NCBI GenBank assembly: GCA_021018995.1
Contig: CM037584.1
Span: 150,429,317 to 150,493,316 of the forward strand
Direction of reading: 5' to 3'
Source: Chloranthus sessilifolius
Lineage: Eukaryota > Streptophyta > Magnoliopsida > Chloranthales > Chloranthaceae
Length of the DNA: 64,000 nucleotides
Below are positions 33,353 through 62,229 of this stretch, piece after piece. The position numbers and the translations under genes were made by a program. The first letter of the stretch is position 1; the number at the start of each line of letters is the position of its first letter. The notes beneath the pieces were generated by a model, which was given only the letters and a program-made list of their open reading frames with translations, searched no databases and was not told the DNA's origin.

Positions 33353-34959
33353 TGTGCAACCGTGGTAATCGAGATGATCCCGTTGCGACGATGTGCTCTC
33401 TAACAAAAAAATATAGAGTCGCCACCTAGAGCTTTCGGTGTCTCGAGATACCTAGTTCATTTTATGAGCACTTAAGTGCTAAAAATATGACTCTGAATCC
33501 AGTCCACACCAAAGGCTCTTGGGTAGGGGCTTCGGTTATCAATCGGGAAGGTGTTAGGCACCCGATCAACCTGCTTAGCATAGTCTCTACTAATGGCCAA
33601 AAATAAAATGAAGTAAAAGAAAAGAAAATGGTTTCCTCTTGCCCAAATGGTACTCCAATCCTATTTGTGCCCCTCTGTTCCTACCGAAAATGCGGCGGCG
33701 TAACGGCACAAAATGAGAGGGTACGGAGAGCAAAAGGAGATAGGATAAGAAAGGGGAGAGCCGAAGCCCTCAGGCCCTTGTAGTACCGTAGAGGAGCCTT
33801 GCATGGCTTGCTTTTGATGAGCTTTTGGAGGCTTGAATGGTGGAAAAAGGAGTTCTAACCACTAAGGCCTACTAGCTAAGAGATGGAGAAGAGAGGCTAG
33901 AGGATCATACACACCTAAGTTAAGGGTTTTGGGTGTAAGAGCAAGCTTGGGAAGGGTTTTTGAATTTTGGATTTTAGGTGAAAATAGTGCACCAAAGGGA
34001 CGAAGAACTTCTCACTTGGAGCTCTTTCTCTCTTAAGCAAAATTCTCAACCCCTAAACCAAGGGGAGGGGGACTCTATTTATAAGAAATGGGTGGATTAG
34101 GAGGGTGTTTAGATGCTAAGCATGGTTAAGAATTAGGTAATTTAGCATCTAAGGTTTCCTATGGTTTTTGGAGCCTTGAAATATGTGAGAAGGTCCTCCA
34201 ATGGTGGATGATGTGGTGAGGCCTTATGCCACTTCAAGGGGTGAAAATAGGCTTCAAAAGGGTGAAATAGAACTAACAAAACACACTCCAAAGGTCAAGG
34301 TGGTCAACAAGTCAAATCCCAAACATGAAATTCAGGGTAAAATCCAACAGTTACTATTCATATGCCTGGCGCAACTAATAGTTGCACCAGGCAAATGTAC
34401 AGTAAAACAGTATGTACAGTGCTTGGAAGTCAGCTCGCAAGGATGGGGCTCACTTTTGAATCTGGCGCAACTATTAGTTACGCCAGGCTTAAAATAAGGG
34501 AAAATTGGCCTGGTGCAACTAAAGTTTAATACTAGCGCAACTATTAGTTGCGCCAAGTCCCTAAGGGGCCCACATGACTTTACATTCATGTCCTCCGGGC
34601 TCAATTTTCCATATCTTTTGACGTATACCTCCGATGGGGGTGATTCTTGGACCATTGGAAAGCTGACGATCTCTACTTAACAACAGTATGAGACTCAATT
34701 GCAGCAGAGGGCCATAGCTAGTTCCAGTGCACCACTCTTTATCCATAGCCTGGTAAGGTTAGGTTTAGGGTTCAAAATGGATTCTAAGGGTCGAGATTGG
34801 TTTCTAAAGGTTCGGGATAGGCTTCTAAGGGATCTAGGGAGATTCCTGAGGGTTTTGGGGTGACTCCTAAAGGTTCTATACATGCCATCAAAAGCTCAGA
34901 ATTGCACCTCTCTCGAAAGCTATTTCGATCGGGCCTTGGGCCAAATTTGGGTGTCTACA
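33353..34959 (-). mobile_element. 3' LTR of the Ogre-type element
   Basis: 1607 bp, TG...CA ends. The minus-strand TATA box (TATAAATA, plus 34076-34083) lies about 280 bases downstream of the palindrome cluster (34365-34557). It is adjacent to a polypurine tract on the right (34960-34975). Compared with the other LTR it lacks about 18 bases that remove half of one palindrome near 34522. Confidence 0.92.
34365..34557. repeat. Palindrome cluster 1 (3' LTR)
   Basis: Core palindromes (arms TGGCGCAACTA and TAGTTGCGCCA around one A/T) at 34367-34389, 34463-34485 and 34533-34555, plus a half copy at 34509-34522. The distance between the first two is 96 bases, twice the 48-base period seen elsewhere. 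The first copy extends to 27 bases with CC...GG outer pairs. Confidence 0.92.
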
Positions 34960-34975
34960 GATGCCCCTCTTTGGT
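34960..34975 (-). other. Polypurine tract of the Ogre-type element
   Basis: Minus strand reads ACCAAAGAGGGGCATC immediately before the 3' LTR start TGTAGACACCC. A purine run ending at the LTR is the expected plus-strand DNA primer. Confidence 0.85.
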
Positions 34976-36650
34976 ATCTGATCACTAATGATCGTATGCC
35001 AAAGAAAAGAGACATCCGAAGAGGCCCAAGACATTACTGACGGGTCCGCTGCATTCAGAACAAACTTCAAACATCAGGTGAGCAACACGGTGAGAAAACA
35101 AAAGCCCTGGGGTGTCAGGCTAATCATTCGTTCCTTGAGGTAATCGATTCCCAAGTCCTTAGCGACATTACTGGGCATAACCGAGGTGGAATGAGTTGGT
35201 GGAAGCCCAATAGCTGGGAAAAATGTTTGCCTCTCAAGTTGTGAAAGCCCGTTAGTCAAAAAAAATGTCCGCTTCTCGAGATGATTTGAAGGTGATTGAT
35301 GTTCGAGATTTATTCTGAATACAACAGTTTCATAAGTAAGAGGGGTGATCGACCCATATTCAAAGATAGGCACGAAGTAAGCATACGCAAGGCTCCATAG
35401 TTTGCATCCAATCCTACAAGGCATTTGACGACCTCATTGGATTATTCGCGGGTGCCCTTGCTGAAAGCAGGGTTCAAGATCTTTGGGCGAACCCATCGAT
35501 CCCAAATTTTATTTAGCATGACCACCCGAGCGAAGTGAATAGATGTCACAATGATTTTTGGGAGTGCATGCCATTTTGAAAATGTGCCCTGGATCAACAG
35601 AAGCTAGAGTATCCAGCTTCAACTACCTTGAACAGATCCAACCAAACATTGGGTGTCTCCCAAAAGGGGGCATCTAATCCTGGTCTCTGTTGACAATGAT
35701 CATAATCATCAATTAACTGTACATAACTATGCACCCATCAGGGGCGATAAGCAGCAACAAAGGCGATGGAAGCCCCGACCCGGACCCGGCCGGGTACAAT
35801 TTACAGGGATAAACGACCATCAAACGGATACCTAGACGCATGACATACACTTTATAGGGATACCGCTGCCCATACAGGTTTTAAGCCTGTAGAAAATAAA
35901 AAAGGGAAATTATCCCTTCTGAATGCATGGTTGCACATAGTTTGATTGACACATAATCTCATTCTCAACAGGTTGGTCTCAACCAATGATTGACCTTTTC
36001 CAACGGAGAATCTGAAGCTTAAGACACTTAAGTTCACATGAATCTAAAACAGAACGCTCATCGTAAAGATTTAGTAGTGGAGTCGGCTCGGTCAAAGCAT
36101 TGATTGTTTGACCAGGACCGACACCATTGCTCCTTCCTACTTCCTTGAAGTAGGATCCAGAATCCAAGGTGTGCCTTAGACTTAGAGCATTATTATCTTA
36201 CAGTGGTGTTGCTGATAAAATATTGATATTTAATCGATTTATGCCTGTGCGTCCCTGTGGGGAATGTAAATCTATTTTTTAATTTTTCCATCATTTTATG
36301 CAATTTTTTTTTAATTTTTCAACTGTCATTTCATGTGATTTTCTGAAACTTTGAAGCTATTATTTTATATGAATTTTTTGAAAATTTCAAGCTATTATTT
36401 TATGTGAATTTTTTGGAATTTTCAAGCTATTATGTGAATTTTTTTGTGAATACTTCTGGCTTCTCTGTGGGGATTTTTCATTTTTGTGTAGGACCGAGGT
36501 GCTTATCGACCTCAGTCCGTCTTTATTTTAGCGCGGCTTCCTTGGCAAGTCGAAGGATGACCGAAATGCTGCCTCGGGAGCGCACGCATTGGCCGGGAGT
36601 GACAGATCAAACAATAAAAAGTGGGGTAACCGGTTTTCCCATCTGACCCG
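34976..36650. other. Noncoding region between 3' LTR and the PMD gene
   Basis: No coding region recognised on either strand. It contains short AT-rich repeats near 36290-36440 (TTTTATGTGAATTTTTTG units) and otherwise unremarkable sequence. It may hold the 3' end of the minus-strand genomic RNA and distal upstream sequence of the plus-strand PMD gene. Confidence 0.5.
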
Positions 36651-36677
36651 TACCAGGCCCAGAACCCGGCCTAAGTG

Positions 36678-36751
36678 CCTGGTGCAACTATTAGTTGCGC
36701 CAGGCCACTATGGGCCTTAAAATAGTCTGGCATAACTAATAGTTGCGCCAA
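36678..36751. repeat. Palindrome cluster 2 (upstream of the PMD gene)
   Basis: Two copies at 36680-36702 (27 bases with its CC...GG extension, 36678-36704) and 36728-36750, start-to-start 48 bases, with a 25-base spacer. They lie directly before a TTTAAA-containing TATA-like stretch (36765-36770) and the putative PMD 5' exon. Confidence 0.92.
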
Positions 36752-36761
36752 GCAAAAGGAG

Positions 36762-38094
36762 GGATTTAAACAGCCCGAACTCGGGCTGTGGGGCATCATT
36801 TCGAATTGCCCCCCCCCCCCCCTCTTCCTCTTTGAATCCGAAAACTGTCCTCCTCCTAGGGTTCCTTTACATTGCCTCTACACGTGCCCTATTGCCGTTG
36901 CTTTTGCTTGTGGATAGATCGCCGGCTCACGCTAGATCAAAGACCCCTATTTTTCTATAAGGTAATCAAAAAAACCTCTCTTCTTTTTTTTTCTATTTTT
37001 TTATTTTTCTTGCTTTTCCTTGTAAATATCATCATGATCTTGTATTATTAGATGAATAATGGTTTATTTTTTGTTGTGAATATATTTATTGATGATGTGT
37101 TGATGATTTTTTTTTGAATAATGCCCTCTTTTTGTTGTTTTATGAATTTTTTGTTGATGCCTAAATATATATATTTACACATTCTCTCTTCTCTTTTTTT
37201 TGGTTTTGTCTTATAAGAAAGGGGTTTTCTTCTTGTTTTTGGTTTTTGTTTTTATTTTGTATACAAAGCAAGGATTTTGGGTATTTTTAATGATTTTTTG
37301 GACATTAACTAGGAGAAAGGGGATTTTTGGTTTTTTAAAAATTAATCAAAGAACTAATGATTTAATTAAGGGAAAAGATTTTTGGTTTCTCTTAAGGAAA
37401 GGGATTTTTTTTTTTTCGAAAACTAAACTAAGATATTGATTTATTATTACCGTCTACCATATTTTTCGTACTGGCCCTCTCCTTCTCTCTTTTTTTTTTG
37501 GTTTTATGGGTATGATGGAAGGGTCCCCCCCTCCTTTCTGGTTTTCTAACATAAAGGGACTTTTTCTTAGTTTTTTTGGTTTTGGGTTCCGATTTTAGGA
37601 GCTTAAAAAAGAAAAAAGATACTCTTTTTTGTTTGTTTGTTTTTTTTGTTTTTGTTTTTTTTTTTTCTCTTAACTTTGGCTCTTTTTTTCTTTCTCTCTT
37701 TTTTTTTTCTTTTCCTCTTTTTTCTTTTCATTTTCAAATGACGATTTTTTTATTTGAATAACTTGCTTTATTTTTATACATAAAAAAGGGAGATTGGTTT
37801 TCTTTTTCTTTTTATTAAGAGGGAAGAGATCTTTTTTTTTGGTGTTTTGCATTTTGTTCTATTTTCGAAAGCAAGGAAAAGGAGCCCTCTCCTTTTTTGG
37901 TTTCGCCAAACATAAAGAAGGGCCCTTTTCCTTTTTAGTGAACATGAAGAACCAACACATTTTTTGTTTGTGTGGATGTAAAACAAAGGCATTTATTATT
38001 TTTTTTTGTTTTGTTGTTTTTTTTTTTTTGAAAGAGCTCGTTGCACATGTATCTTTGTACCTGACCAGATGTGATTGCCTTTTGTTGCCTCAGT
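36762..38094 (+). promoter_or_regulatory. Putative promoter, 5' UTR and leader intron of the PMD gene
   Basis: A weak TATA-like TTTAAA (36765-36770) is followed by a C/T-rich leader (CTCTTCCTCTTTG..., 'CTAGGGTTCC'). A likely splice donor AAG|GTAATC lies at 36961/36962. The next 1.1 kb is very T-rich, typical of plant introns, and ends TTTTGTTGCCTCAG at 38093, one base before the ATG at 38095. The short frames in the T-rich stretch (37200-38000) are low-complexity and not genes. The intron is inferred from splice-site and composition signals only. Confidence 0.5.
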
Positions 38095-40514
38095 ATGTCA
38101 GGCGGTGATGAGCACATTCCTGAGGAGGGACCCGAGATTGTATATGGTCCGCGGGAGGAGCAGTTCCTCTGGGTGGAGCGGAGAGTGGGCCCATGGCTCG
38201 AGATGCAGGGTGAGGCTGCTCGGGCCGACCTCTTTCATCAGCAGCACACCCATATCTCAAATTTTGGAATAGCGAGGAAGGTAAAAGACAGGTTCAATTT
38301 CTTTCCTTTGCGCAGTTTTACTTTACTCCTGCAATCTGATGCGCATTTTTTGGGTGCAGGATTTGCCCAATATTGTGTTCCGCGGGGGGTGGCTCGACTT
38401 CCATGAGTTCTACCTCTATGTCCCCCCCGTAGTGAAGGTCCTGTTGGAGCAGGTGGGCTTTGGGGAGTTCCTGTCCTGTCCCGCTATGAGAGTCGATGCT
38501 GCTTATTTGAAGGCCCTGATCGAGAGGTTTCGTCCTGAGACCATGACATTGCATATGTCGTACGCCGAGATGACATTGACGCCCATTGACTGGGCCATGA
38601 TTACCGATATTAGGATAGGGGGAGTCCCGATCTCCACCTTGGCGGTACCGAGCTGGGAGGACGTTACTCGATTGATTGGGGCCTATCCCCCTTGCGGACA
38701 GACCCATGGTACAGAGGTCAAGATGTGTTGGCTGACTTCCCTCTTTTCACTTGATGAGTTGGTGGACTTGGGTCAACCAGATAGGGCGCTCTATATCACA
38801 CTCGAGCAAGCGATCGTCCTAGCTCGTATCACCCTCCTAATCCTGTTGGAGAAAACCCTCTTCACAAATGCCAGTGGGGGGCGAGTCAGCCTGGGCTTGT
38901 TGAGCGTGATGGATAATTGGGGTGAATCCCTAGGTACGACTGGGGAGGGGCAGGTTATGCGTGGTTGATGTATAATTTATCTCAGGTTACGAGCTGTGGG
39001 TTTTTGGGCCACGCTAGAGGTAATTTCGCATTTCCTTGCCCTCGTCAATACACATTCTTTTTTTTTTACTTTTATGTGCCATTGACCTGCTTTTATGTGT
39101 TGCCTCTTTAGGTATGGGGATACCACCACTTCCACCCCGAGCTCCCTCTCCTTTTCTCGGAGGCGCTCAACTATCCTCTTCTCAGCAACTGTCATCAGGC
39201 CCGACGTCGTGACATGGGCCTAAAGCATCTAGAAATGGGCCTATGGTCCCAACTTGATTTGATGGTCCCCGAGCAGGTAACAACTCTCCTCTCCCTTCTC
39301 AACCTTTGTTCATTTTTAGCTTGGAAATTTTCTTTGACTGAGGTGTTGCTTGCTTGGTTTTTCTCCCCCTTTTTTGAGCAGATCCTCCCTGATCCATATC
39401 TGACATCCCCTTTCTGGGACCGAGCAACAGTGGGTGCCTCCCGTCTATTCAACAATCACCGCGTCACCTTCTTTTACGGAGCCTGGGCCTGGTTTTATTA
39501 TCTAGGGGAGCGAGTGGAACACTAGTTTCAGGGCTACTACGCCATACCTGTGGATCCTCCGATGGACGTTTGGAATCCCGCTGGTAGTATTGAGGAGCTT
39601 ACAGCGGCTTTTTTCAACAATGGGTTCCCTATCCATGCCCTTCACATGCCTGGGGACAATCATTTCTGGTATGAATGCCTGCCTCATTGATTCATCCTGC
39701 CGGGCTTTGTCCCTAGCGCTAATTTTCTAGCATTTGGCGGCCTGCTTGGTCAGGTAACTCTTCTCAGCTTGGATTAGTTTCCCTTATATTTTTAATTCAG
39801 CCTTTGTCTCATCTAAGTGGATCTTTATTTTGTTCATAGTTTGCTCTGGGAGATGATTCGAATGGTGAGGGCAGGCCGAGTACAGCTGATGTGTCAGGGG
39901 TAGATCCCTCTGGCGCTGGCCCTTCTGGTGCGAGTCCCTCGGGTGAGGTCTCCTTGGGTGTTGGTCCGTCGGGTACCTCTCATGCTGGTATCCCTGGTGG
40001 TGATCCGTCCATAGTCTACGGGACCTTTCGGCGCCTTGACGATGGCTTCCTCTCGGACCTCTGTGCTGACGTAGATCGACAGGCACGGCTCTCCGTCGAA
40101 GCGGCCCGTGTTCCTCCTCCTGAGGTGGTCCCTGGGGTAAGTCTTCTGATGACCCATTCTTCCTTCATTTTGGTTTCCTCCTGCGTACGCTTTTAGGATT
40201 GTCCTAACAACTGAATATTGTATCGTAGGACTTCAACTCGGCCATGGAATATGCGGAGTATCACCGTCATCTTGCAGAGCTTAGGGAGGTGGAGACGGTG
40301 AGTACCTGGCTGCCCTGCTCCTCTTATACATTTCATTAATACTGGTCCCTTAACTGATCTTGACCTTGACCGTGCTTTGCAGCATGCTCGTGCCAAGGAG
40401 TCGCGCTCCCTACTCAGTAGGATCTCGCAGGCGTGGTCTAGGGTGGGGGACATGCGGACCTATCAGGGCTCTTCTCGCCGTCGCAAGAAATCAAAGGGTG
40501 CGAGCAAGGAATAG
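38095..40514 (+). pseudogene. Plant mobile domain (PMD) gene, seven coding exons, antisense to the Ogre-type pol
   Basis: Exons with GT...AG junctions: 38095-38280, 38360-39019, 39112-39276, 39382-39753, 39840-40136, 40229-40297 and 40383-40514 (TAG 40512). Every exon length is a multiple of three, giving about 626 codons. The PMD core is in exon 2: IVFRGGWLDFHEFYLY, YLKALIERFRPETMTL and EMTLTPIDWAMITDIRIGG, continuing in exon 3 as VWGYHHFHPELPLLF and exon 4 as FFYGAWAWFYYLGERVE. Exon 5 is Gly/Ser/Pro-rich; exons 6-7 are basic, ending RRRKKSKGASKE. Defects: a +1/-1 frameshift pair around 38935-38985 and two stops in exon 4 (TAG after RVEH, TGA after LPH). PMD proteins are linked to silencing control in plants; here the role is inferred. 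Confidence 0.8.
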
Positions 40515-40889
40515 GCTTCTGATTTTGTTTTGAGAAGTCAATACTCTTTGGAATTTGATTTGTATTTGTTTAAACATTTGGGGATGATTGATGTGGTACT
40601 TTGGAAACAAATTTTATTTTTATTATCATTTGGGAGATAGTCTTGCTTTGATTTTATGCCCCTATTTCTTGGTATCAAATCCGCTTCTCTGCAGGATGTG
40701 TTGGCCCAAAATGTCTTTGGAAAGTGACCCCCTTTGGTTGCATGCCTTGATGTAGGATTGGTCCTGTATATAAATAAACAGAACAAATGCTTAGCTGTTA
40801 AATGAACAGGGCGTGTGAAGCAAACAAACAAAAGGGTGTAAGCCCCCCATTTAGGTCCCGAATTGGCTGAAGAGGGGGAGCTCGGAGTG
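40515..40889. other. Intergenic region after the PMD gene
   Basis: AT-rich 3' flank (plausible 3' UTR of the PMD gene) with no coding region seen. It leads into palindrome cluster 3. Confidence 0.5.
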
Positions 40890-41055
40890 TGGCGCAACTA
40901 ATAGTTGTGCCAGGTTAAAATCCCCAGAAATATGTGCTGGCGTAACTATTAGTTGTGTCAGGCAAAACTAGGGGCCAGAATGTGTTGGCGCAACTAATAG
41001 TTGCGCCAGGCTTGTCCTGGGGAAACACTCACTGGCACAGCTATTAGTTGCGCCC
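40890..41055. repeat. Palindrome cluster 3 (upstream of the DUF7745-type gene)
   Basis: Four copies at 40890-40912, 40938-40960, 40986-41008 and 41033-41055. Start-to-start distances are 48, 48 and 47; spacers of 24-25 bases differ in sequence. The copy at 40986 is a perfect 23-base palindrome; the last has lost its end pairing (GCGCCC). Confidence 0.95.
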
Positions 41056-41082: not shown

Positions 41083-41088
41083 TATATA
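41083..41088 (+). promoter_or_regulatory. TATA box of the DUF7745-type gene
   Basis: TATATA in CCTTATATACTCG, 28 bases after the last palindrome of cluster 3 and 164 bases before the ATG at 41252, on the plus strand. Position and context fit a core promoter. Confidence 0.65.
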
Positions 41089-41251: not shown

Positions 41252-42707
41252 ATGGAGGGCCCGGAGCTAATTTACCCCCTTTGGGAATTTTTAGCGGCCT
41301 AGTTTGGGAGCTTGAATGAGAGTGAGCTTGCCGACTTGGGGCGCCTTGGGCTATCTCGCCTTCCTTCCTTCCTAGAGATTCCTCTTCGGTGGGAACTTCT
41401 TCATGCCACCGCTTCATTCTGGGACGTGAACCTCCACGTATTCCGTTTTGGGAAGCGGGAGCTAACCCCAATTCTCGAGGAGCTATCCAATCTGTCTGGC
41501 CTGAAGCTTCACAGGGGCCTTGCAAGATTTATGCCTCGGCCAAGATATTCTAGATCCGTTCACCTTACTCTCGGTTTGAAGAAATCCAAGTATGAGAAGA
41601 GCCTTATTAGGGAACCCACAAGGTGTTCGCTGAAATTCCTCAAAGAACTTTTTGGTGATGAAAGCCTCCGAAAATTGCCAGTTACGAATGTCTTTAATGT
41701 GAAAGCTCTAGCAGTTGGTCTCATCTCTGAAATCCTCCTCTACACCGGGGGAGAGAGCTTCTCATTGGTAGTCTGTGATATTTTGATGGAGCTGGAGGCG
41801 GGCCGGTCCATGATGCACTTGGTGCTTGCCGAGTAGTACCGATGCCTTGATTCCTTTGCTTTGGGTAAGGTGGAGGGCCTTCGTGGATGCCCTCTGTTGC
41901 TTCAGGTTTGGTTGGGTGAACATTTTGCGGTTTTGGATCTGTGCCCCGCTTTTACATTGCCCGAGGCAAGGTGGCCCAATATTTTTTTGGTAGATGCCAC
42001 CTGCTTCCACAGGGTGATGTGCCAGCTCTGAAGCTTTGGTTGACCGATGTCGAGCTGATATGGAGGCTTCCTTGGTCAGACCGAACCTTTTCAGTGATTC
42101 GTTCTAGAGACCATGAGGGCATCACTCTCCTAGGATTGACTGGCAGCACCTTCTACTTCCCATTTCGAGTACTGTGCCAATTTGGCTGCTTCCAGCAGGT
42201 GCCTTGCGAGGCCAGACCCCCTTTATGTGATTTGATCTTTTCTAGGGTATCCTCTGGGGACATAGATCGGATTGCTGCTCTTTAGGAGATGCATCAGTCG
42301 ACGCTGATGTGTGATGTTGAGCAAGGAGACTCGGTTAGGACTTCTCTGAGTACGAGGCTTGGCTGTTGACTGAGCGGCCTGCCGGTGATGGCCCGAATTT
42401 GTCAGATATCATTGATATTGAAGGCCCCTGACCAAAGAAAGAGACGGCACTCCGAGCTCGTATCGAGCTATTGGTGGATGAGAAGAGGGTCCTGCAAGAA
42501 CTTTTGGCATGCGAGAGGGTTAGAGCAGACACAGCGGAGAGCGAGGTTCTCCATTTGAAGGGATCACTGAGCATTGCTTTTGGAGCGGCGGACTCTTCTC
42601 GGAAGAGGTTCAAGAGCCTGCATGGTCGTTGGCTGACTGAGAGGAATGTCCGAGAGGATGACCTTTATGCTGAGATTAGCGCTTTGAAGCGCGAGCTGGG
42701 CCGCTAA
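41252..42707 (+). pseudogene. DUF7745-type accessory gene, antisense to the Ogre-type pol
   Basis: Reads MEGPELIYPLWEFLAA, a TAG at 41300, then FGSLNESELADLGRLGLSRL, RWELLHATASFWDVNLHVFR and FGKRELTPILEELSNLSGL; a TAG at 41834; then, after a frame change near 41960-42000, LKLWLTDVELIWRLPWSDR, ITLLGLTGSTFYFPFRVL and QFGCFQQVP. The 'FWD...FRFG...TLEEY'-like and 'LLG..G...Y.P..VL.QFG' patterns match the plant domain DUF7745, often seen in retroelement proteins of unknown function (family from memory, not searched). The C-terminus (42430-42707) is a charged, probably coiled-coil segment (LRARIELLVDEKRVLQELL...) ending ALKRELGR. TATA box and palindromes lie just upstream. Confidence 0.65.
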
Positions 42708-46100: not shown

Positions 46101-46164
46101 CATAATCAGTAAACTTCTTGCTCAGATAGTAAATGGCCTGCTCTCTTCTTCCCGTTTCATCATG

Positions 46165-47467: not shown

Positions 47468-47559
47468 TTTGATTAAGGCATCCTTTTGTGGGACATTTTC
47501 TAGAATTTTAAATGATAATTTTTTTGGACTTTGGATTTTTTCAATGTTTTTGGGATTTT

Positions 47560-48210: not shown

Positions 48211-48227
48211 GCTTTCTCTTTGGCCTC

Positions 48228-49095: not shown

Positions 49096-49099
49096 ACAG

Positions 49100-52000
49100 T
49101 GATATGGGCAAGTATTCTTCTCAACTGAGTCTCTAGTATATGTTCTCGACTCATCTTCTCGAAGGGGTTCACCACGCTGTCTTTCTTTCCTTCAGGTTGG
49201 GCTTGTGCTGCCACTGGTACTTCTGGCTGCTTTGATATCCTCCCTGACCTGGTAATAAAATCTACTGCCCCTTCTCTGCTGCTACTGCCGGCATTGACAT
49301 TTATTTGTTTGTAGCTTAGCGGAACCTGATGAGGATTATATGTGGGTCTCGAGAGCTGGAAAGGTATGGTTGCCGATTCTTGAGGTACTTGTACTGTCGG
49401 CTCAAGAGGTGTGGGCAATACTTGATTCACCTCGGTGGCAGCGGGTTGGGTAGAAAGATTCGGCCAAATGGGGGTGGTGAAGCTTGAAGGTGGTGGCATT
49501 GGAGGGAAGGAGGTAAAAGTAGGCCATTGATAGCTAGTGGGTGCTAGCAACAGATGGGGGGTTTGATGGGCTGTTAGGTAATTGATCGGGGTGGTGGAGT
49601 TTGCCGGTGGTTAGACTGGGGGTGATGGAGTGGGCGCATGCCATTGATAACTTATGGATGCGAGTGTTGGATTGGGGGCCTGGTGGCTTAAAGGGTAATC
49701 GATGGGGGTTATGGTGTATGGTGGTAGTTGAAATGGGGCAGGCGCAGGCCACTAATGACTGGCGAGTGCGGGTGCAGGATTGGGGGCATGGGGGTTTATA
49801 GGGTAATTGATGGGGGTTGTGGTGTATAGTTGGCATGCATTGATATTTACATAATTGACGGGTGTGGTGGACGAAAAGTATGTCCGGAGATCCAAAGGTT
49901 CAAATTGTGGGGTTGGGTTGGGGAAATATTCAGACAAATTTAGGGGTTCAATTACCCCAACATTCCTTTCTTCATCATTCCTCGGACATGGTGCCACATA
50001 ATTCTCCCAATCACTGATATAATCGGATGGGTCAAATTCAAACTCCTCATCTTCTATCATTCCGATGGTGGGTATGGGACCTGCTCCTCCAGTAGGATGC
50101 GAGGGTAGTGGCACTTGGTGAATATTAGCATGCTGAGAAGGTGCAGGGGGGATCATTTTCCCGGCATCGATTAAATCTTGAATGGCATGCTTCAACGGGA
50201 AGCAGCGATCCGTAGGGTGACCCGGACCCTAATGAAAATTACAGTGGGTATTTGGGTCATAGTTCCTTAGGATCGGGTGAGGAGGAGGTTGCGGTTGGAG
50301 AATAGCCACTAATCCCTTTTCTACTAATATGGGAAAAAGTACACTCAAAGATTGCCCCAGAGGTGTGAAGACTCGGTCGTAGCGGGCTCTCCTCTATTCC
50401 GGAGTCATTTACATTCCTTGCCCATTCCCCATTCTTTGCGTTTGCTCAGGCCTAACAGGTGCTGGTGGGGCTGCCTGAAATTGAAATGGGGTAGTATTAT
50501 CGGTCCTGGTATTGACTATGTTTTGGACATCGCCCCCTATTCTCTTCTCATTTCTCTGCTCTGAAAATCATCTAACCCCACTGGGTTCACTTGGCACGTT
50601 CTTATTCAGACGACCCTCTCTGATGGCATCCTCACATCGGTTAGCATTTTTCACCAGATCAGTAAAACTATACTACTGTTGGTATACCAAAAAGTCTGAG
50701 ATTACTGGCAGAGTGTTCTTTGAAATTATCTCTATTTGTTCATCATCAGGTATTCTATTCCTGACCTAAGCTGTCAGTGATCTCCATCGCCCTAAGTAGT
50801 CGTTGAAGGTCTCGTTCTGGTTCTGCTTCAACAGGCCAAGTCAGACTTACGCGGCTCGATGTCTATATTGTAGACATACTGTTCTTGAAAGAGATGCGTC
50901 AAGTCCCTCCACGTTTTCATCATAGACGGTTCTAATGATGTGAACCATCTTAAAGCCGGCCCGGTCAGACTCTTTTGAAAGACTTTTATTAGTAGTCTTT
51001 CGTCCTCCCCGTATTGGCATATGTCCCCGCAGTAGGACTTCAGGTTCGTAATAGGATTGCCTGTGCCATTATATTTGTCGAAGGCTGGCATTTTGAATTT
51101 GGGGGGCAGGGGGACCTCAGCGAACAGACATAAGTCTGTGAAGTCCGTGGCATGGATTTCAGCACCACCCATTTTCAACAGCTGCTTTTATATTTTGTCC
51201 AATTGTTCCTTCAGCTGCTCTGACTCTTTCGATACAGGGGTCGCTTTCTCCGCCGTCAGTTGGCCTTCACTCTGGGCCACCGGGGGATGGGCAATTATGG
51301 GAGGAGGGTTGAGGCTGGTCAAAGCCCCAGCATAGGCCCCGCTATTGCTAATCTCGTCCTCTTCATACTGCTGATCGGCATAGTGTGCAGCGAGGGCGGG
51401 ATTCTCTTGTTGTTGTTGCATGGGTTGGATGGGAATGACATGAGTAGGGGTTGGGTGAGCCCATTGGGGGTGAGGAAAGGTTTGTTGGGTGATGGGAATT
51501 TGGTTTTGAGGTGGGGCCTGATAGGGCCATTGGGTATGGGGGAATGTTTGGAGATGGCCTTGGGGTGTGGGGCCATGGGAAAATTGGGTTTGGGGTATGG
51601 CATGGGTTTGACCTGGGTGTGAGGGTTGGGTGAAATGTGGAAGGTCTAAGTGTGGGGTTTGGGCTTGGGCAATGAAGCCTTGGTCATTTTGGGCCATGGG
51701 CCACTGATGGGTTTGGACCATAGGTCCTTGGTAGGTTTGGGCCATGAGCCCTGGGTAGGTCTGGGCCATGGGCCCTTGATGGGTTTGGGCCAAGGGCCCT
51801 TGATGGGTTTGGGCTATGGGCCCTGGGTAGGTTGGGCCAATGGACCTGGGTAGGTTTAGGCTAATGGGCCTTGATGGGTATGGGCCATGGGCCCTTGATG
51901 GGCTTGGCCCAATGGGCCTTGATGGGTCTAGGCGATGGGCCCTGGGTAAGTTTGGGTGGTGGGGTATTGGGCCATGGGGCCTTAGGATATGTGGGAAAAT

Positions 52001-52706: not shown

Positions 52707-54732
52707 TGTTGGGTGATTCCAGTGTGCTGATTTATGGTGTGAACATCAAGAGAAAACAGAGATGGGTTCAGCACAGCTGGGAAATCCTAGGCCTGCAAGA
52801 TACAGGATCCTTTGTAGCAAGTTTTAAAAGTAAGTAAGGGGAAGTCCACAGAGAGGTGGTTTGGAAATGGGTAAATCTCCAGATTTGTAAGAGATCTGGC
52901 ACCCTAACTAATGTTGATCTAGCTAAAAGACAGGGGAGAGATTAGATTGGAGTTTCACTTAATCTAAACTACAATTAAAATGCAGATTTTCTTAGATCGA
53001 ATCTGGAGCCTCAAATCTTGCAGATGGAGGGTTTAAAAACTCAGAAAATAGAGAAGAACAACTTGGAGATTGTTTTCACTGCAATCAGGTTGAGTTAAGC
53101 ATATTACAGGGCTTAAAAAGCACACAAGTCCCTCAGCTGGCCACAAGCACAGCTGCAGAGTATAAATTTCACTCAAAATCACAGGATCCACCTGGTCTTA
53201 AGGCTATGATCTGTCCACTTTAATGGTCATAGACCATCCTATAGACTTTATCGAATCCATGGATTGCAGCAGATGAATCCAATTGAGGCCTGAGCTTAGA
53301 TTTACCTTAAGGCTATGATCTATCCACTTTAATGGTCACAGACCATCCTATAGATCTCCTACAAAGCCAGAGACTCAATTAGAATAATTAAAACCACTAC
53401 AAATGCTGTAATTTCTAGGTCACAGATGTAGGAAATTATAGGGATATTTGATCCAGGGAATTCAGATGATATCCAAGAGGTCTATGAGTTAAGTGGGTGA
53501 GAAGATCAAGCAACTCCTCTACACAAATTCGATCGAGCACCAAAAGGAATCAAAAGATCTTTAGATCTAATTAAAACATTGAAAACAACATTTACATTAC
53601 AAATAAGGTCACTCTTACAATGGAATGCTCTCAGATTTGTAGTCTGTGCAGCAATTAACCCTAGCAACACTCTTAACCTTATCCAATCATAGATCTAACT
53701 CACTCCTTGCTGCTCCTAGGGTATTAGCCAACCATGGTTGGGCTAAAGGAAGGAAAATAAAATCTCACTGCAAGCTCTGATCTCCAAGAAATTGTTCAGA
53801 AATTCGATCTCCTTTAATGGCAATTGCAGATCTATATATATAGCTTTCTCCTCTGTTTTTTCTACCAAAAATCTCTTCTAGAAGGTCGTCAGAGTTTGTT
53901 AGAGTTCTGTTAAAGCACGTGGGCTGGTTAGGGCTTTCTAGGGCATCTTCTAGAACCTCGTGCCGGTCACCAAAGTGCCTCGGGTTGCGTGCAACAGGTA
54001 TTGAATCACCACGTGTGCACAGCTGAATTTCTGAGAAGTTCTGCACACAATTTCGACAGGTTCAAGGACCTTTCGACAGGTTGGAGGGACTCTTCGACAG
54101 GTTGGAGAACCATTTTGATAGGTTTCTTTCTGCATGTTATCCCTTCGATAGGATTGCTCTTACTCCTATCGAAAGACTCAATCACCATTCGATAGGTTCT
54201 GTTCCATCACTTTCATCTCGATAGGTTTAAGAACCATTCGATAGGTTCCTTTGACGCTTCAAGTAGGCTTTCGATAGGATGGTTTCTTCATTCCTTTTAG
54301 CTGCTCGATAGGTTCTTGGATCCTATTGAACTGCTCTATCCGCACGAATTCATCCTTCTTCTACCTTCCGATCCTATCGAAAACTTCTTCAACTACACGA
54401 ATTCTTTCTTTCTTTGCTTTCAGCTCCTATCAAACTCTTCAGGTGACCCATCGATAGGATGTTTTCAACCTATTCTCACTTTCTTCACCTTGTCCTGCTA
54501 TAGCCACGCGCTCCAAGGGTTCAATGATGTGCTACCCTTGGGTGTGCTATTGCTGAGTTCGTCCTATGCTGAGAGATGGCTCCTTGTTGGGCATTCTTGA
54601 GTATTTTTCTTCATTAGTATCTTCTTTTATTGTTGTCTACAAAATGCACTTGACAATGGCTTATTAGTGCGCTCACAGGTCTATCAATGGTCAGGTTATA
54701 GGGTGAAAAGTGGCATTTTTCACCACTTAACA
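52707..54732 (-). mobile_element. 3' LTR of the nested element
   Basis: 2026 bp. The minus-strand TATA box TATATATA lies at 53832-53843. A TTCGATAGG array (54050-54480) lies upstream of it. Short open frames inside are not genes. Confidence 0.93.
54050..54480. promoter_or_regulatory. TTCGAYAGG array in the nested element's 3' LTR
   Basis: About fourteen copies in both orientations, including TTCGACAGGTT (54053, 54068, 54090) and TTCGATAGG(T/A)T (near 54146, 54197, 54237 and 54269). The 5' LTR repeats the array at 58755-59180. It lies 200-650 bases upstream of the TATA box in transcription direction. Confidence 0.75.
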
Positions 54733-56320
54733 CACCCCCAAACCTAAGCTTTGGTAGTCCATGAGCAAAGGAGAATTAAAAGGAAATAAAAATGCCACTT
54801 TCGTAGGGAGCACAAATGCATTTAGCATATACACCAAGCCTTTTAAACCCCTAGGTGATCCCTAGTGGAGGAGTGAAGTCTCCTGAGGGTTTTTAGTGAA
54901 GGTACCCACAAACTTCTCCAATACACTTAGTTAATAATAGTGCAACCTGTTAAAGCAGAGTTTGAGCAAATCAAATAAATTCACACCATGCCCATTCATT
55001 AAAGGAAATTCAACAGAAAAAAAAAAACATCCATTTGAAAATATGAAAGTTTGCTGAAATCTCTCCATCATCACTCAGTTTGTGTCAAGGCATTTCTCCT
55101 GAAATTTTATGCATAATTCACCATCAATTTGAGGATCCTGCTCAGATACTTCCCCCATCAACTGGATTTCCGACCCAAGTCTCACCAGGGCTGTTCACTC
55201 ATTAGTACAGAGAAGAGGGATAAATCATATCTCTCAGCTTAAGAGCAGTTATAGCCCTCAAATAGGACTGCAAGCAGGAGCATAGGCATTGCTTGAATTT
55301 CTGACTTTTCCAGCTCTTTTCGCCATAGATTAAGCAGATTCTCATCTCCACATGACAGCTCAATCCACTTTCAGATCAGTAAGGTCTTTTTATTGGGTTG
55401 TAATGTGGCTTAGGGATGAGGTTTGTGAAGGACCAAAAAGGGATAACAGAGTTCAAAATTGAGAAATCAGTAAAGGCAAGGAGGTGATTCATGACTTCAC
55501 CTTCTTCAATTCAGAACCTCTTCACTGTCTTTTTGAATTTTTCAGACTTGAAGTGATCAGCTTCTTGTCTTCTTGTAGATTTTTAAGTGGAGTGACTTCT
55601 CTTCCTCATTCTTTTCCTTTGCTTCTTTTTTTTTTTTTTTTTTTATGTGTGTGGGTTGGAATGCCACAACATAACAAACTGTGTTTTCCTTTCTTTTGAC
55701 CAGATTTGCCACCTTACTCCTCTAACCTCATTTCTCCTTCCATTTCTTGATTTCTCTTATTGGAGGTAGACTGAAATGGGCCAAAGGGGTTTTGGGTTCA
55801 AACTTTCTGGTTTCTATCAAAGAAAACTGGGATTTTTTTTTGGCTCAAAAAGGTGTGTATCAAGGGCAGTTCAAAGGTGGGGAATTTCAGGCTCAAACTG
55901 TCCAAAGGATGGCTTTACTTCACATCTTCGATGTCCTGAGTGCTGTCAAGTTGTTTCAACTCAGATTTGCCTAACTTCTAGTGATCAAGATTAGGTCCAG
56001 TCAGTCCTTAAAGCAAAAAGAATTGCCATGACACTCTTCAAAGAAATCTTTCAGGCCCAATTCTCACTGGGTATGGCCTTCCATCCAATTTTTCTAGGGG
56101 GTATCTTCACAGTCTCTTCTCATTGCTGGTGTATTACACATCAAAAACTTTCTTCAAAAATTCTTGATATTTTCTTCATGAAAAATGTTAAAACTTCAGC
56201 TTACTTCAGTTGCAAATGGTTTTTAAAGTTTCCTTAATAACAAATATGAGGTGAATTCATTCTCTTTTCGATTATTCCTTTTTAACTTGGCTGCACTAAA
56301 ATTAACTAGTTTATTGGCAT
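54733..56320. other. Noncoding internal region of the nested element
   Basis: Begins with the polypurine tract (plus strand CACCCCCAAACC at 54733-54744). The rest holds no recognisable coding region on either strand; the small open frames at 55480-55990 match nothing I know. Confidence 0.6.
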
Positions 56321-56324
56321 ACAT

Positions 56325-56345
56325 GCCACACCCCCAAACCTTAAC
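56325..56345 (-). other. Second polypurine-tract-like sequence inside the nested element
   Basis: Minus strand AAGGTTTGGGGGTGTGG repeats the tract found directly before the 3' LTR (54733-54745), about 1.6 kb upstream of it and just after the end of the env-like frame. Confidence 0.6.
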
Positions 56346-56379
56346 CAAACAGTGTCCTCACTGTTTTGAGAAAATTCAA

Positions 56380-57403
56380 TCAAGAGAGAGATAGGGTAAG
56401 AAGATATCTATAGAATAACACAACAAAAATGTCAAATATATACAAGAGACAAATGAAAAAGAAACTGAAACAACACATGGCCAAATTCAGCAGAGTGAGG
56501 TACGGAGGAATGTACATGTGCTGGAGAAGGATGATGGGCAAGGAAGGGGAAGTAGTGGATGGATAGGAGGGGGGGTAGAAAACGAGATCCTCACATGGAT
56601 CCGTTTGGGTGGAAGCATCATGGAAAGGAGGAGAGGAAAAGGGGGAATGGGTGGTGGGAATCTCAGCAACTCCAGAAACAGGTGCCGGTGGGGATGAAGG
56701 TAGAACAGCTATTAGGAAGGGAGGTGGTGGTAGAGATGGAGTTGCTAACTCCACAAATAGGATATCAGTAGGGATGGGGGAGGCTATGGGTGAAAAGGGG
56801 GGAGAGAAGTGGAAAAGTGAGGGGTCAGGGGGGAGAGGAGAAGTGGGAAGGGGTAGAGAAACTGAAGGGGGGGAGTAAGGGTGGATTGAATTGATTGGAG
56901 GCATGAGCTCATGAGGGCCTGGTTGTCAGTGTTAGTGGCTAATTGGGCCTGAATGAACTGTAGGAGGGAGAGGATTTGGGTGAAAGTGTCAGGTAGGGTG
57001 GAAGTAGAGGGGATGGGTGTTTGAATGGGATGGGAAGGAGAGGATGGGGCATGGATAAAAGGAGGAGGAGCGGTGGGAGGGGAGTCAAGTAGTGGGGTGT
57101 ACTCATGAGCAACATCCTCCACAATTGAAGAAATGAGGGCAGTGAAACCAGTAGAAGTGAACTGGTCCAAACCCTGTGTATGGATAGGTAGTGGTGGAGG
57201 GGGGGAATCAGGAAGGGGCTGGAGGGAGGGTGGGGAGGACATGGTGGGGATAGGCTTGGAGAAGGTGGGGAGTTCCAGGATCCCAGGTCAGAATTCTTGA
57301 GTGGTGGGTGGAAGGGGGACGGAGACAGATGTGAAAAGCAAGGTGGGTGGAGGTGTAGGTAAGGTAGATGGAAAATTGGGTGTTGTAGGAGGAATGGCTC
57401 CAA
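56380..57403 (-). pseudogene. C-terminal half of an Athila env-like frame with hydrophobic tail
   Basis: Pro/Ser/Thr-rich N-terminal part, then TGFTALISSIVEDVAHEYTP, DTFTQILSLLQFIQAQLATN and NQALMSSCLQSIQSTL (57242-56784), matching 2890-3444. A frameshift near 56890 leads into a second Pro-rich stretch and a C-terminal hydrophobic segment, CCFSFFFICLLYIFDIFVVL (about 56470-56400), a plausible membrane anchor. The N-terminal domain present at 4144-4869 in the other copy is absent. The start is unclear, because the element is a deletion derivative. Confidence 0.65.
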
Positions 57404-57408
57404 AAACT

Positions 57409-59437
57409 TGTTGGGTGATTCCAGTGTGCTGATTTATGGTGTGAACATCAAGAGAAAATAGAGATGGGTTCAACACAGCTGGGAAATCCTAGGCCTGCAA
57501 GATACAAGATCCTTTGTAGCAAGTTTTAAAAGTAAGTAAGGGGAAGTCCACAGAGAGGTGGTTTGGAATTGGGTAAATCTCCAGATCTGTAAGAGATCTG
57601 GCACCCTAACTAATGTTGATCTAGCTAAAAGACAGGGGAGAGATTAGATTGGAGTTTCACTTAATCTAAACTACAATTAAAATGCAGATTTTCTTAGATC
57701 GAATCTGGAGCCTCAGATCTTGCAGATGGGGGGTTTAAAAACTCAGAAAATGGAGAAGAACAGCTTAGAGATTGTTTTCACTGCAATCAGGTTGAGTTAA
57801 GCATATTACAGGGGTTAAAAAGCATACAAGTCCCTCAGCTGGCCACAAGCACAGCTGCAGAGTAGAAATTCCACTCCAAATCACAGGATCCACCTGGTCT
57901 TAAGGCTATGATCTGTACACTTTAATGGTCACAGACCATCCTATAGACTTTATCAAATCCATGGATTGCAGTAGATGAATCCAATTGAGGCCTGAGCTTA
58001 GATTTACCTTAAGGCTATGATCTGTCCACTTTAATGGTCACAGACCATCCTATAGATTTCCTATAAAGCTAGAGCCTCAATTAGAACAATTAAAACCACT
58101 ACAGATGCTGCAATTTCTAGGTCACAGACGCAGGAAATTACAGGGATATCAGATCCATGGAATTCAGATGATATCCAAGAGGTCTACCAGTTAAGTGGGT
58201 GAGCTAATCAAGCAACTCCTCTACATAAATTCGATCGAGCACCAAAAGGAATCAAAAGAGCTTTAGATCTAATTAAAACATTGAAAACAACATTTACATT
58301 ACAAACAAGGTCACTCTTACAATGGAATGCTCTCAGATCTGTAGTCTGTGCAGCAATTAACCCCAACAACAATCTTAACCTTACCCAATCACAGATCAAA
58401 CTCACTCCTTGCTGCTCCTAGGGAATTAGCCAACCATGGTTGGGCTAAAGGAAGGAAAATAGAATCTCGCTGCAAGCTTTGATCTCCAGGAAATTGTTCA
58501 GAAATTCGATCTCCTTCAATGGCAATTGGGGATCTATATATATATAGCTTTCTCCTCTGTTTTTCCTGCCAAAAATCTCTTCTAGAAGGTCGTAAGAGTT
58601 TGTTAGAGTTCTGTTAAAGCACATGGGTCGGTTAGGGCTTTCTAGGGAATCTTCTAGAACCTCGTGTCGTTCACCAAAGTGCCTTGGTTTGCATGCAACA
58701 GGTCATTGAATCACCACGCGTGCACAACTGAATTTCTAAGAAGTTCTGCACACGATTTCGACAAGTTCAAGGAGCTTTCGACAGGTTGAAGGGACTCTTC
58801 GACAGGTTGGAGAACCATTTCGATAGGTTTCTTTCTGCATGCTATCCCTTCGATAGGATTGTTCTTACTCCTATCGAAAGACTCAATCACCATTCGATAG
58901 GTTCTGTTCCAGCACTTTCATCTCGATAGGTTCAAGAACCATTCGATAGGTTCCTTTGACGCTTCAGGGAGGCTTTCGATAGGATGGTTTCTTCATTCCT
59001 TTCAGCTGTTCGATAGGTTCTTGGATCCTATCGAACTGCTCTATCTGCACGAATTTATCCTTCTTCTGCCTTCCGATCCTATCGAAAACTTCTTCAACTG
59101 CACGAATTCTTCCTTTCTTTGCTTTCAGCTCCTATCGAACTCTTCAAGTGACCCATTGATAGGACGTTTTCAACCTATTCTCACTTTCTTCACCTTGTCT
59201 TGTTGTAGCCACGCACTCCAAGGGTTCAATGATGTGCTACCCTTGGGTGTGCTATTGCTGAGTTCGTCCTGTGTTGAGAGATGGCTCCTTGTTGGGCATT
59301 CTTGAGTGCTTTTCTTCATTAGTATCTTCTTTTATTGTTTTCTACAAAATGCATTTGACAAGGGCTTATTAGTGTGCTCAAAGGTCTATCAATGGTCAGG
59401 TTATAGGGTGAAAAGTGGTATTTTTCACCACTTAACA
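57409..59437 (-). mobile_element. 5' LTR of the nested element
   Basis: 2029 bp, nearly identical to 52707-54732. TATA box TATATATATA at 58534-58547 on the minus strand, with the TTCGATAGG array at 58755-59180 upstream. It ends TTAACA next to CGGGG. Confidence 0.93.
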
Positions 59438-59556
59438 CGGGGGCGTATTGGGTGTCGGAGATGGCGGGGCCCAAACAAGGCACTAAGCACACTGATCGGG
59501 GAACTTGGGAGGTGGAAAGGGCCAAGGATTCGGGCTGGGGCTGTGCAAACAGGCCT

Positions 59557-59723
59557 GGTGCAACTAATATTTGCGCCCAGGTTGCAAGGGAGCCTTTTTA
59601 CACGTGCGCAACTATTAGTTGCGCCAAGGTAAAAAAAAAATGGACTTTAAGACTGGCACAACTATTAGTTGCGCCAGTTATAATTTCCAGGTTTTTGGGT
59701 TGGCGCAACTAATACACGCGCCA
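59557..59723. repeat. Palindrome cluster 4 (Ogre-type leader, before gag)
   Basis: Four copies at 59557-59579, 59604-59626, 59654-59676 and 59701-59723; start-to-start 47, 50 and 47 bases, with spacers of 24-27 bases of unrelated sequence. In the unnested element this cluster would lie about 500-650 bases upstream of the gag start. Confidence 0.93.
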
Positions 59724-60233
59724 GGCAAAATCTACTTCTCCAGAATGTTTGACAGCAGCCACCAACACTCGAAATGAGTCTCTTTTTTGGTTTTTTGTGG
59801 AAGCTAGGTTTCCGGGAACTGAGCTATTTTTTTTTTGTGATCGATTCTCTCCTCACTGCACCTAAAAGGTTTGAGTCCGGTATAACTCGCTAGCGTGCTC
59901 CCCAAGGTTTTAAACTTTGGAATGGGAACCCACCCGATATACCTCCGGCGCAAGCGCCTTCTCAAATACTAGGTGGGCTGGGGTTTTTCTGGATCATCAC
60001 GACTAGGGGCTGCCGCCATACTAAGACCCGAGTATTTATGTGTTTGCCTAATCCCAACCCACCCGCAAAACAAATTAATTAAGCTCCCTAACTTGGTTCA
60101 ATTTTAATTTTTTTTTCAAAGCTTTTTTTCTTATTTTTTTGAGAAAGTTTTCTTTAGTTCAAAGACCGGGAGTGATTATCCCGTGCCGCCACTACAGGCC
60201 GGCGTCCACTGGCGGAATATGAGTGCTCAAGTT
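59724..60233 (-). other. Leader of the Ogre-type element, LTR-proximal part
   Basis: Untranslated. Contains T-rich and CpG-containing segments (ACCTCCGGCGCAAGCGCCTT near 59945, a short inverted repeat). No gene seen. Confidence 0.55.
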
Positions 60234-60485
60234 GGCCCGCCAATCGGCTAAGGCACTTTAAACGACGGAAAATTCAAAGAATTGAAAGACAATGCACAAG
60301 TAGGCCCGCCAATCGGCCAAGGCACTTTAAACGACGGAAAATTCAAAGAATTGAAAGACAATGCACAAGTAGGGCCGCCAATCGGCTAAGGCACTGAAAT
60401 GACGGGAAAGTAAGGAAATTAAGAGACCATGCGCATGTAGGCCCGCCAATCGGTTAAGGCATGTAAATGACAGAAAAGTAGGGGT
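60234..60485. repeat. 69 bp tandem repeat in the Ogre-type leader
   Basis: Units 60234-60302, 60303-60371, 60372-60439 and a partial 60440-60485, each starting GGCCCGCCAATCGGCTAAGGC. The first two are nearly identical; the later ones diverge. It lies 125 bases from the primer site, in the 5' leader where packaging signals are expected. Confidence 0.9.
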
Positions 60486-60608
60486 GAGAAAAATGACTTA
60501 ATCGGAGGGGTGAGTTAAAAAATAGCAAAAATAAGATTAAAAAAATAGCAATAAATGTTAGGAAAAATAAACAAAGGCCTAGTTCATGGGAAAGCTCTAC
60601 AAACTACT

Positions 60609-60625
60609 CCCCAACAGAGTCGCCA
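60609..60625 (-). other. Primer-binding site, tRNA-Arg type (Ogre)
   Basis: Minus strand reads TGGCGACTCTGTTGGGG, starting 2 bases after the LTR end. This is the tRNA-Arg-complementary primer site characteristic of Ogre elements, so it supports the lineage call independently of the proteins. Confidence 0.9.
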
Positions 60626-60627
60626 TC

Positions 60628-62229
60628 TGTGCAACCATGGGAATCGAGACAATCCCGTCACGACGATGTGCTCTTTAACGAAAAAATATATAGTCCCCAC
60701 CCAGAGCTTTCAGTGTCCCGGGATACCTAGTTCATTTTATGAGCACCGAAGTGCTAAAAATATGACTCTGAATCTGGTCCTCACCAAAGGCTCTTGGGTA
60801 GGGGCTTCGGTTATCGATCGGGAAGGTGTTAGGCACCTGATCAACCCGCTTAATGCGGTCTCTACTAATGGCCAAAAATAAAATAAAGTAAAAGAAAAGA
60901 AAATGATTCCCTCTTGCCCAAATGGGCCTCCAATCCTATTTGTGCCCCTCTGTTCCTACCAAAAATTCGGTGGCGTAACGACACAAAATGAGAGGATAGG
61001 GAGAGCAAAAGGAGATAGGAGAAGAAAGGGGAGAGCCGGAGCCCTCGGGCCCTTATAGCACCATAGAGGAGCCTTGTGTGGCTTGCTTTTGATAAGCTTT
61101 TGGAGGCTTGAATGGTTGAAAAAGGAGTTCTAACCACTAAGACCTACTAGCTAAGAGATGGAGAAGAGAGGCTAGGGGATCACACACACCTAGGCTAAGG
61201 GTTTTGGGTGTAAGAGCAAGCTTGGGAAGGGTTTTTGAATTTTGGATTTTAGGTGAAAATAGTGTACCAAAGGGAGGAAGAACTTCTCACTTGGAGCTCT
61301 TTCTCTCTTAAGCAAAATTATCAACCCCTAAACCAAGGGGAGGGGGGCTCTATTTATAGGAAATGGGTGGATTAGGAGGGTGTTTGGATGCTAAGCATGG
61401 TTAAGAATTGGGTAATCTAACATCTAAGGTTTCCTAGGTTTTTTGGAGCCCTGAAATGTGTGAGAAGATCCTCCAATGGTGGATGATGTGGTGAGGCCTT
61501 AAGCCACTTAAAGGGGTGCAACAGAACTAATAAAACACACCCCAAAGGTCAAGGTGGTCAACAAGTCAAACCCTAAACATGAAATTCGGGATAAAATCCA
61601 ACAGTTACTGTTCATATGCTTGGCGCAACTAATAGTTGCGCCAGGTAAATGTACAGTAAAATAGTATATACAGTGCCTGGAAGTCAGCTCGCGAGGATGG
61701 GGCCCACTTTTGAATCTGGCACAACTATTAGTTATGCCAGGCTTAAAATAAGGGAAAATTGGCTTGACACAACTATTAGTTGCTCCAGGCAAAGTTTAAT
61801 ACTGGCGCAACTATTAGTTGCGCCAAGTCCCTAAGGGGCCCACATGACTTTACATTCATGTCCTGCGGGCTCGGTTTGCCATATCTTTTGACGTATACCT
61901 TCGATGGGGGCTATTCTTGAACTGTTGGAAAGCTGACGATCTCTACTTCACAACGGTATGAGACTCGATCGCAATAGAGGGTTGTAGCCAGTTCCGGTGT
62001 ACCACTCTTTTTCCATAGCCTAGTAAGGTTAGGTTTAGGGCTCAAAATGGATTCTAAGGGTCGAGATTGGTTTCTAAAGGTTCGGCATAGGCTTCTAAGG
62101 GATCTAGGGTGATTCCTGAGGGTTTTGGGGTGATTCCTAAGGGTTCCATACATGCCATCAAAAGCTCAGAATTGCACCTCTCTTGAAAGGTGTTTCGATC
62201 GGGCATTGGGCCAAATTTGGGTGTCTACA
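60628..62229 (-). mobile_element. 5' LTR of the Ogre-type element
   Basis: 1602 bp, TG...CA ends. The minus-strand TATA box CTATAAATAG lies at 61350-61359; the palindrome cluster (61619-61826) is about 260-470 bases upstream of it. About 1-in-10 sites differ from the 3' LTR by eye. Confidence 0.92.
61619..61826. repeat. Palindrome cluster 5 (5' LTR)
   Basis: Copies at 61621-61643, 61717-61739, 61765-61787 and 61803-61825; distances 96, 48 and 38 bases. The third copy is complete here but half-deleted in the other LTR. Confidence 0.93.

Follow-up and report, generated by a model that had tools for sequence, protein, structure and literature searches.

Palindromes repeated at intervals of about 48 bp as candidate operators in an Ogre/Tat-like retrotransposon of Chloranthus sessilifolius

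A 64,000-nucleotide stretch of the Chloranthus sessilifolius genome (assembly GCA_021018995.1, contig CM037584.1, positions 150,429,317 to 150,493,316 of the forward strand), referred to as the window, contains an Ogre/Tat-like Ty3/gypsy retrotransposon at 33353-62229, read on the minus strand. Copies of one 23-bp palindrome, mostly spaced at about 48 bp, were found in its long terminal repeats (LTRs), upstream of two antisense accessory genes encoding PMD and DUF7745 proteins, and in its 5' leader. The palindromes are probably phased operators for a dimeric regulator, itself probably encoded by the element, that would co-regulate the LTR and the accessory genes. We give this reading a probability of roughly 55%. 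That the palindromes have an operator role of some kind appears very likely, and the odds that their binder is encoded by the element itself seem about even.

The scan used the pattern TGGCGCAACTA-N-TAGTTGCGCCA, and mismatches at its 22 fixed positions were counted over the whole window. Seventeen palindromes with 0-3 mismatches were detected, and the next tier of matches had 8 mismatches. Chance origin was ruled out, since 20 Markov sequences of window length gave no match with fewer than 6 mismatches and the reversed pattern gave 0 matches genome-wide. All 17 palindromes and a half copy were located inside the element. Assigned to neither strand, they formed a cluster in the 3' LTR (34367-34555; palindromes at 34367, 34463 and 34533, and the half copy at 34509), a P cluster upstream of the PMD gene (36680-36750; two sites), a D cluster upstream of the DUF7745 gene (40890-41055; four sites), a G cluster in the 5' leader just inside the 5' LTR (59556-59723; four sites, of which sites 1 and 4 are asymmetric variants), and a cluster in the 5' LTR (61621-61825; sites at 61621, 61717, 61765 and 61803). 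The start-to-start intervals were 96 and 70 bp in the 3' LTR, 48 in P, 48, 48 and 47 in D, 48, 50 and 47 in G, and 96, 48 and 38 in the 5' LTR. The initial annotation had listed these 17 sites in the same places, except that one starts at 59556 instead of 59557, and its distances mostly agree, with one 47 in the leader set now read as 48. Its half copy near 34509 was genuine: the LTR alignment places a full site at the matching position of the other LTR (61765), with a gap of 16 bp.

Between clusters, the palindromes were 86.1% identical (72 pairs) and the flanks 28.2%. Between the two LTRs (3 pairs), the values were 94.2% and 91.7%, and such near equality is expected for decay after insertion. 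Among changes at CpG positions of the window palindromes, 11 of 12 were transitions. The eight inner spacers showed weak column similarity beyond their first 3 bases (p = 0.0075), so the earlier description of conserved palindromes with diverged spacers holds, and only the word "unrelated" for the spacers was slightly overstated.

The PMD and DUF7745 genes lie between pol and the 3' LTR, both on the plus strand and thus antisense to the element. TTTAAA, the putative TATA box of the PMD gene, is at 36765-36770 (plus strand), and TATATA, the putative TATA box of the DUF7745 gene, is at 41083-41088 (plus strand), 27 bp past the last palindrome. The LTR TATA box TATAAATAG is on the minus strand at 34078-34083 in the 3' LTR and at 61353-61358 in the 5' LTR, 283 and 262 bp downstream of the nearest palindrome. 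The initial annotation had recognized an LTR retrotransposon. It had not noticed that the element reads on the minus strand, nor the antisense genes and the TATA boxes that the clusters adjoin.

These arrangements were compared among related elements. Twenty DUF7745 promoters were chosen without regard to palindromes, spread down a list of 149 others, and 501 bp around the start were used. Two to four palindromes were present in 18 of the 20, and the intervals, window included, were 47 (15 times), 48 (30), 49 (2) and 39 (1). With the window counted, 5 of 21 rows had the strict TATA pattern past the last site, and TTATAT stood there in 16 of 21 when the alignment was read by eye. In L048, the sites and the TATA box were lost together. 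For PMD, the 12 of these 20 elements with four DUF7745 sites were used, with 1.2 kb at the expected promoter. All 12 carried 2-3 sites at intervals of 48 (17) or 47 (2), and a TATA-like word was located 12-16 bp past the last site in 10 of them (none in L050; at 57 bp in L053). A second palindrome, ACAGCCCGAACTCGGGCTGT, is present at 36770-36789 of the window, directly past the PMD TATA-like word, and a similar word was seen in 11 of 12 related promoters (not visible in L053).

Another set consisted of 20 loci picked by the palindrome itself: each was a 9.9 kb stretch surrounding a perfect site, and the perfect sites used were those that came first in the list for one contig. Sites were counted at up to 5 mismatches, and their context was assigned from matches to the window element with the palindromes masked. 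LTR sites were present in 18 of the 20 loci, and in 14 of these 18 the nearest palindrome was 273-284 bp upstream of TATAAATAG. The exceptions were L022 (368 bp), L023 (boxes at 43, 138 and 415 bp), and L012 and L016 (no exact TATAAATAG within 700 bp). Overall, 94 of 96 sites were within 150 bp of an element match (LTR 53, leader 25, PMD side 9, DUF7745 side 7). The remaining two, both in L026, were 174 and 221 bp from an LTR match. An aperiodic spread outside the family, which would have spoken against the initial annotation, was thus not seen in these loci, and the period recurred.

The host genome (2,168,743,587 bp) contained 58,168 palindrome copies at up to 3 mismatches, and the reversed-pattern control found none. 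In a pool of 207 sites (up to 5 mismatches), AACTAATA was conserved at 97.6% or more at each position, although the pool is partly alike by selection because of the 5-mismatch limit and its central base is set by orientation. The centre was nearly invariant, and the CpG-bearing arms varied more. Of 141 intervals up to 160 bp in this pool, 112 were 46-50 bp and 11 were 37-39 bp; the LTR intervals of 96-101 bp were looser than these two main peaks. At 10.5 bp per turn, intervals of 47-48 and 37-38 bp are about 4.5 and 3.5 turns, and as judged from these two peaks adjacent sites face opposite sides of the helix. Outside the plant, the 19-bp core was matched in four bacterial contigs, one site each. 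In viral contigs the pattern had 0 matches, and for the PMD, RT and DUF7745 pieces no relatives were confirmed there. A CRISPR array, which the initial annotation had also rejected, was ruled out by the Ty3/gypsy element, the 2.17 Gb genome and spacers in register across copies; no search for cas genes was made.

Palindromes and spacers were then compared for conservation, as the initial annotation had proposed, and the palindromes were more conserved than the spacers in all four contexts and in promoters chosen without regard to them. In 13 four-site DUF7745 promoters (window included), sites were 85-92% identical per unit, spacers 60-63% and fixed-offset flanks 70-77%, and spacer lengths were 24-26 except for one of 16. 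Across 21 DUF7745 promoters, pairwise identity was 0.846 in non-CpG palindrome columns vs 0.559 in spacers (p = 1.5e-17). In the palindrome-picked loci, non-CpG palindrome columns exceeded spacers and flanks in all four contexts (11, 7, 3 and 4 rows, window included), and this persisted when the perfect sites of the fetched loci were left out (p from <1e-6 to 0.017). Repeated homogenisation, which had been offered as one cause of the conserved repeats, is disfavoured: by eye, leader site 1 (6 of 6 rows having it) and site 4 (8 of 8) retained their own asymmetric variants, so they had not been overwritten by their neighbours.

The open piece of the PMD gene (38339-38968, plus strand) matched PF10536 over profile positions 1-138 of 347 (E = 1.1e-10; 41.7 bits; Pfam cut-off 34.9). 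The first open piece of the DUF7745 open reading frame (ORF; 41303-41833, plus strand) matched PF24924 with E = 4.7e-5 and 23 bits, below the Pfam cut-off of 26. A later piece in the DUF7745 gene region matched PMD with E = 0.0021, likewise below the cut-off. Substitutions at codon positions 1/2/3 were 96/79/205 for PMD (4 related copies vs window; p = 9e-17) and 36/24/62 for DUF7745 (2 related copies vs window; p = 9e-5), although these p-values are overstated because changes of the window copy are counted once per relative. The excess of third-position changes indicates that both genes were coding. Genome-wide, 9,825 DUF7745 candidates were found; 150 were scored, all at least 84% identical, with frames open up to 552 aa.

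In the proposed mechanism, a two-fold symmetric, dimeric protein would bind the palindromes and form phased arrays along the DNA. Two to four operators would precede the LTR promoter as well as the antisense promoters of PMD and DUF7745, the 5' leader would hold another array, and one factor could switch gag-pol and the accessory genes jointly. A protein array on DNA would require just this: spacers of constant length whose letters are free to change. The factor would most likely be the product of the DUF7745 or PMD gene, acting as a self-specific activator or anti-silencing factor in the manner of foamy virus Tas or of VANC from VANDAL elements. The proteins of the element are the first suspects because the element is the only place where the sites were found, the controlled genes are of obscure function, and VANC and Tas provide precedents. 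The specific form of this proposal, in which the antisense DUF7745/PMD product is a sequence-specific dimeric DNA-binding regulator acting on palindromes in half-turn phase at the promoters of the element that encodes it, as a self-recognition circuit like those of VANC and Tas, is more tentative and may well be wrong. More speculatively, the quicker change of the spacers relative to the flanks would be consistent with an escape from RNA-directed methylation of the kind suggested for VANC targets (PMC10398659).

The strongest competitor is a host transcription factor recruited by the element, with the accessory genes merely sharing host control. LTR elements commonly carry U3 repeats bound by host factors, and the promoter-proximal position of the sites suits this explanation. 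We consider it unlikely but worth keeping in view: the site, at 23-25 bp, is long as well as symmetric, and none of the 96 sites in the 20 palindrome-picked loci, the first listed on one contig, was clearly outside the element. The nearest host consensus that can be named is that of E2F, TTSSCGC, and E2F sites were ruled out, as the base before TGGCGC was C in 69% of the 207 sites. The palindromes could instead act in the genomic RNA as hairpins or dimer-initiation sites, serving packaging, dimerisation or stability. All window sites are within the element, the palindrome folds or self-pairs, and one cluster is in the 5' leader. This RNA role appears improbable in view of the near-fixed distances to TATA-like words of opposite-strand genes and the position of the LTR clusters upstream of the LTR TATA box. 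Among the 17 window sites, sense-strand C>T and G>A changes (10 vs 8) showed no wobble-keeping bias, and mirrored double changes numbered 1 vs 26 one-sided changes, a weak test as copies decay after insertion.

A functionless, decayed 48-bp tandem repeat, kept alike through recent homogenisation or short age, would explain the weak residual similarity of spacers and the gain or loss of whole units. It is about as improbable, since spacers and palindromes are of equal age yet differ in identity as given above, leader sites 1 and 4 have retained distinct variants, and one site type recurs at four otherwise unlike places. Least probable is a structural role, as integrase targets or in the phasing of nucleosomes or heterochromatin. 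Targeting of palindromes by LTR elements is reported (PMC6911290), and half-turn phasing would agree with such a role, but the sites stand at nearly fixed distances from TATA-like words at three promoters, which speaks against it.

Several observations weigh against the proposed element-encoded operator system. A host factor would yield identical conservation. In the 21 DUF7745 promoters, palindrome identity (0.846) was not above that of the outer flanks (0.803; p = 0.49), and these promoters were drawn from the 150 best-matching of 9,825 copies and are therefore close relatives. L029 retained only a remnant with 6 mismatches, and L033 kept four sites with its TATA word gone. No TATA-like word was found at the leader (G) cluster, and the asymmetric leader sites 1 and 4 imply that full symmetry is not needed everywhere. 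The single-sequence structure model of the PMD piece was unusable (mean pLDDT 35.8). Finally, a second PMD clade, sampled as the window copy at 11694-12188 and 6 of 149 listed relatives, is 30% identical to the PMD of the palindrome-bearing element. The 5.2 kb upstream of it contained no TGGCGC sites and no comparable array (0 of 6 loci), so PMD alone does not predict palindromes.

In two loci of this second clade, DUF7745 was not found within 4 kb downstream, with positive controls found. It was also not found downstream of the window's own second-clade copy, where that side is broken up by other repeats. These DUF7745-less loci (n = 2) may fit DUF7745 as the binder of the palindromes. The window's second-clade copy has only a different array, in its LTR, a related one (16820-17322), with the core CTGAAAYAATAG and hits 30-79 bp apart; relatives of this array are at 20731-20790. 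Its arms vary per unit and yet stay largely complementary (e.g. CCATATACT/AGTATATGG and CCATGCACT/AGTACATGG), which looks like selection on a hairpin or dyad shape. As a second case of the same circuit it is unsupported, as the core was not found upstream of PMD in 6 relatives.

The 3' LTR (33353-34959) and the 5' LTR (60628-62229), both on the minus strand, are 89.9% identical. Pieces of gag, G-patch and RT/RNaseH are spread over 44138-51187 on the minus strand, with Pfam matches at 48228-48797, 50831-51187 and 46168-46560 (among them Retrotrans_gag, E = 3.1e-7, and RT_RNaseH_2, E = 2.8e-7) and an integrase-like piece recognized by eye only. The minus-strand pieces 49053-49550, 44138-44590 and 46817-47098 had no Pfam match. 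By its sequence, with an LTR pair, Ty3/gypsy-type gag and RT-RNaseH, and an extra PMD ORF, the element is Ogre/Tat-like. A nested element occupies 52707-59438 in the 5' leader of the outer element, with LTRs of ~2 kb (94.5% identical) and an apparent 5-bp target duplication, by eye. A 24-bp tandem repeat at 51641-51998, within a minus-strand open frame upstream of gag, encodes a proline-rich repeat, and a 69-bp tandem repeat is at 60224-60477 in the 5' leader, just inside the 5' LTR. Elsewhere in the window, spaced inverted repeats with arms near TTGCACGC/GCGTGCAA, ~110 bp apart, occur in an LTR-like stretch (20968-21210), and 21-bp tandem arrays on AATCGATTAATCGATT are in or beside another LTR-like repeat (2579-2677, 29304-29724 and 30638-30924). 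Unrelated repeats rich in GATACGTATC-type palindromes were seen at L026:8017-8200 and L011:3960-4080.

Among known systems, the closest likeness is to VANC of the Arabidopsis VANDAL elements (MULE). The available parts of PMC5735166 and PMC10398659 describe element-specific motifs in dense noncoding arrays of one transposable element (TE) family, evolving through gain and loss of repeat units; the VANC motifs are 8-9 bp long, in one orientation and with proven binding. TAGTTGYGCC half sites in all clusters (e.g. 59654-59676) resemble the VANC6 motif AGTTGTCC given in part of PMC5735166, possibly by chance. Family-specific motif arrays in noncoding regions were likewise present in the loci examined here. 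Unlike VANC targets, they consist of a 23-bp palindrome, a putative binding site, at a near-fixed 48-bp interval in an LTR retrotransposon. In foamy viruses, the internal promoter drives accessory genes. Sites shared by the LTR and accessory-gene promoters were found in the present element as well. For Tas/Bel1, the part of PMC517496 available reports one site set in the LTR and the internal promoter, with an internal target of 27 bp, similar in length. The trans-activator is proven there, whereas the present element has antisense accessory genes and a putative binder.

Ogre/Tat and Retand/Grande elements are likewise Ty3/gypsy with an extra ORF between pol and the 3' LTR. According to the passages available, PMD extra ORFs occur in 57% of Ogre elements (PMC6317226), and antisense ORFs occur in Retand/Grande, where the Grande antisense gene has its own promoter (PMC11963269, PMC7264820). 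Unlike the present element, the same passages of these three sources make no mention of palindromic operators common to LTR and antisense promoters. MAIN and MAIL1 also belong to the PMD family, and genes dependent on MAIN/MAIL1/PP7L are enriched for the "DOWN" promoter motif in the accessible text of PMC7156037 and PMC5418596, where anti-silencing use of captured PMD by MULEs is speculated. They differ as host proteins acting in silencing. No report of such palindrome arrays was found in the open-licence literature. TEs that carry cis sites on which a trans factor is presumed to act are already a known kind, and the palindrome arrays appear to be new within it.

Antisense accessory genes are present in several families of plant Ty3/gypsy elements, and their function is called unknown in PMC7264820 and PMC11963269; PMC5418596 describes what the PMD domain does as undetermined. 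Since the LTR and the two accessory promoters share a defined 23-bp palindrome at nearly constant spacing, the function of these genes becomes directly testable by protein binding. If the proposal is true, it would provide a first function for these accessory ORFs. If the proteins bind, self-specific regulation or anti-silencing would extend from DNA transposons to LTR retrotransposons, with ~58,000 sites in one genome.

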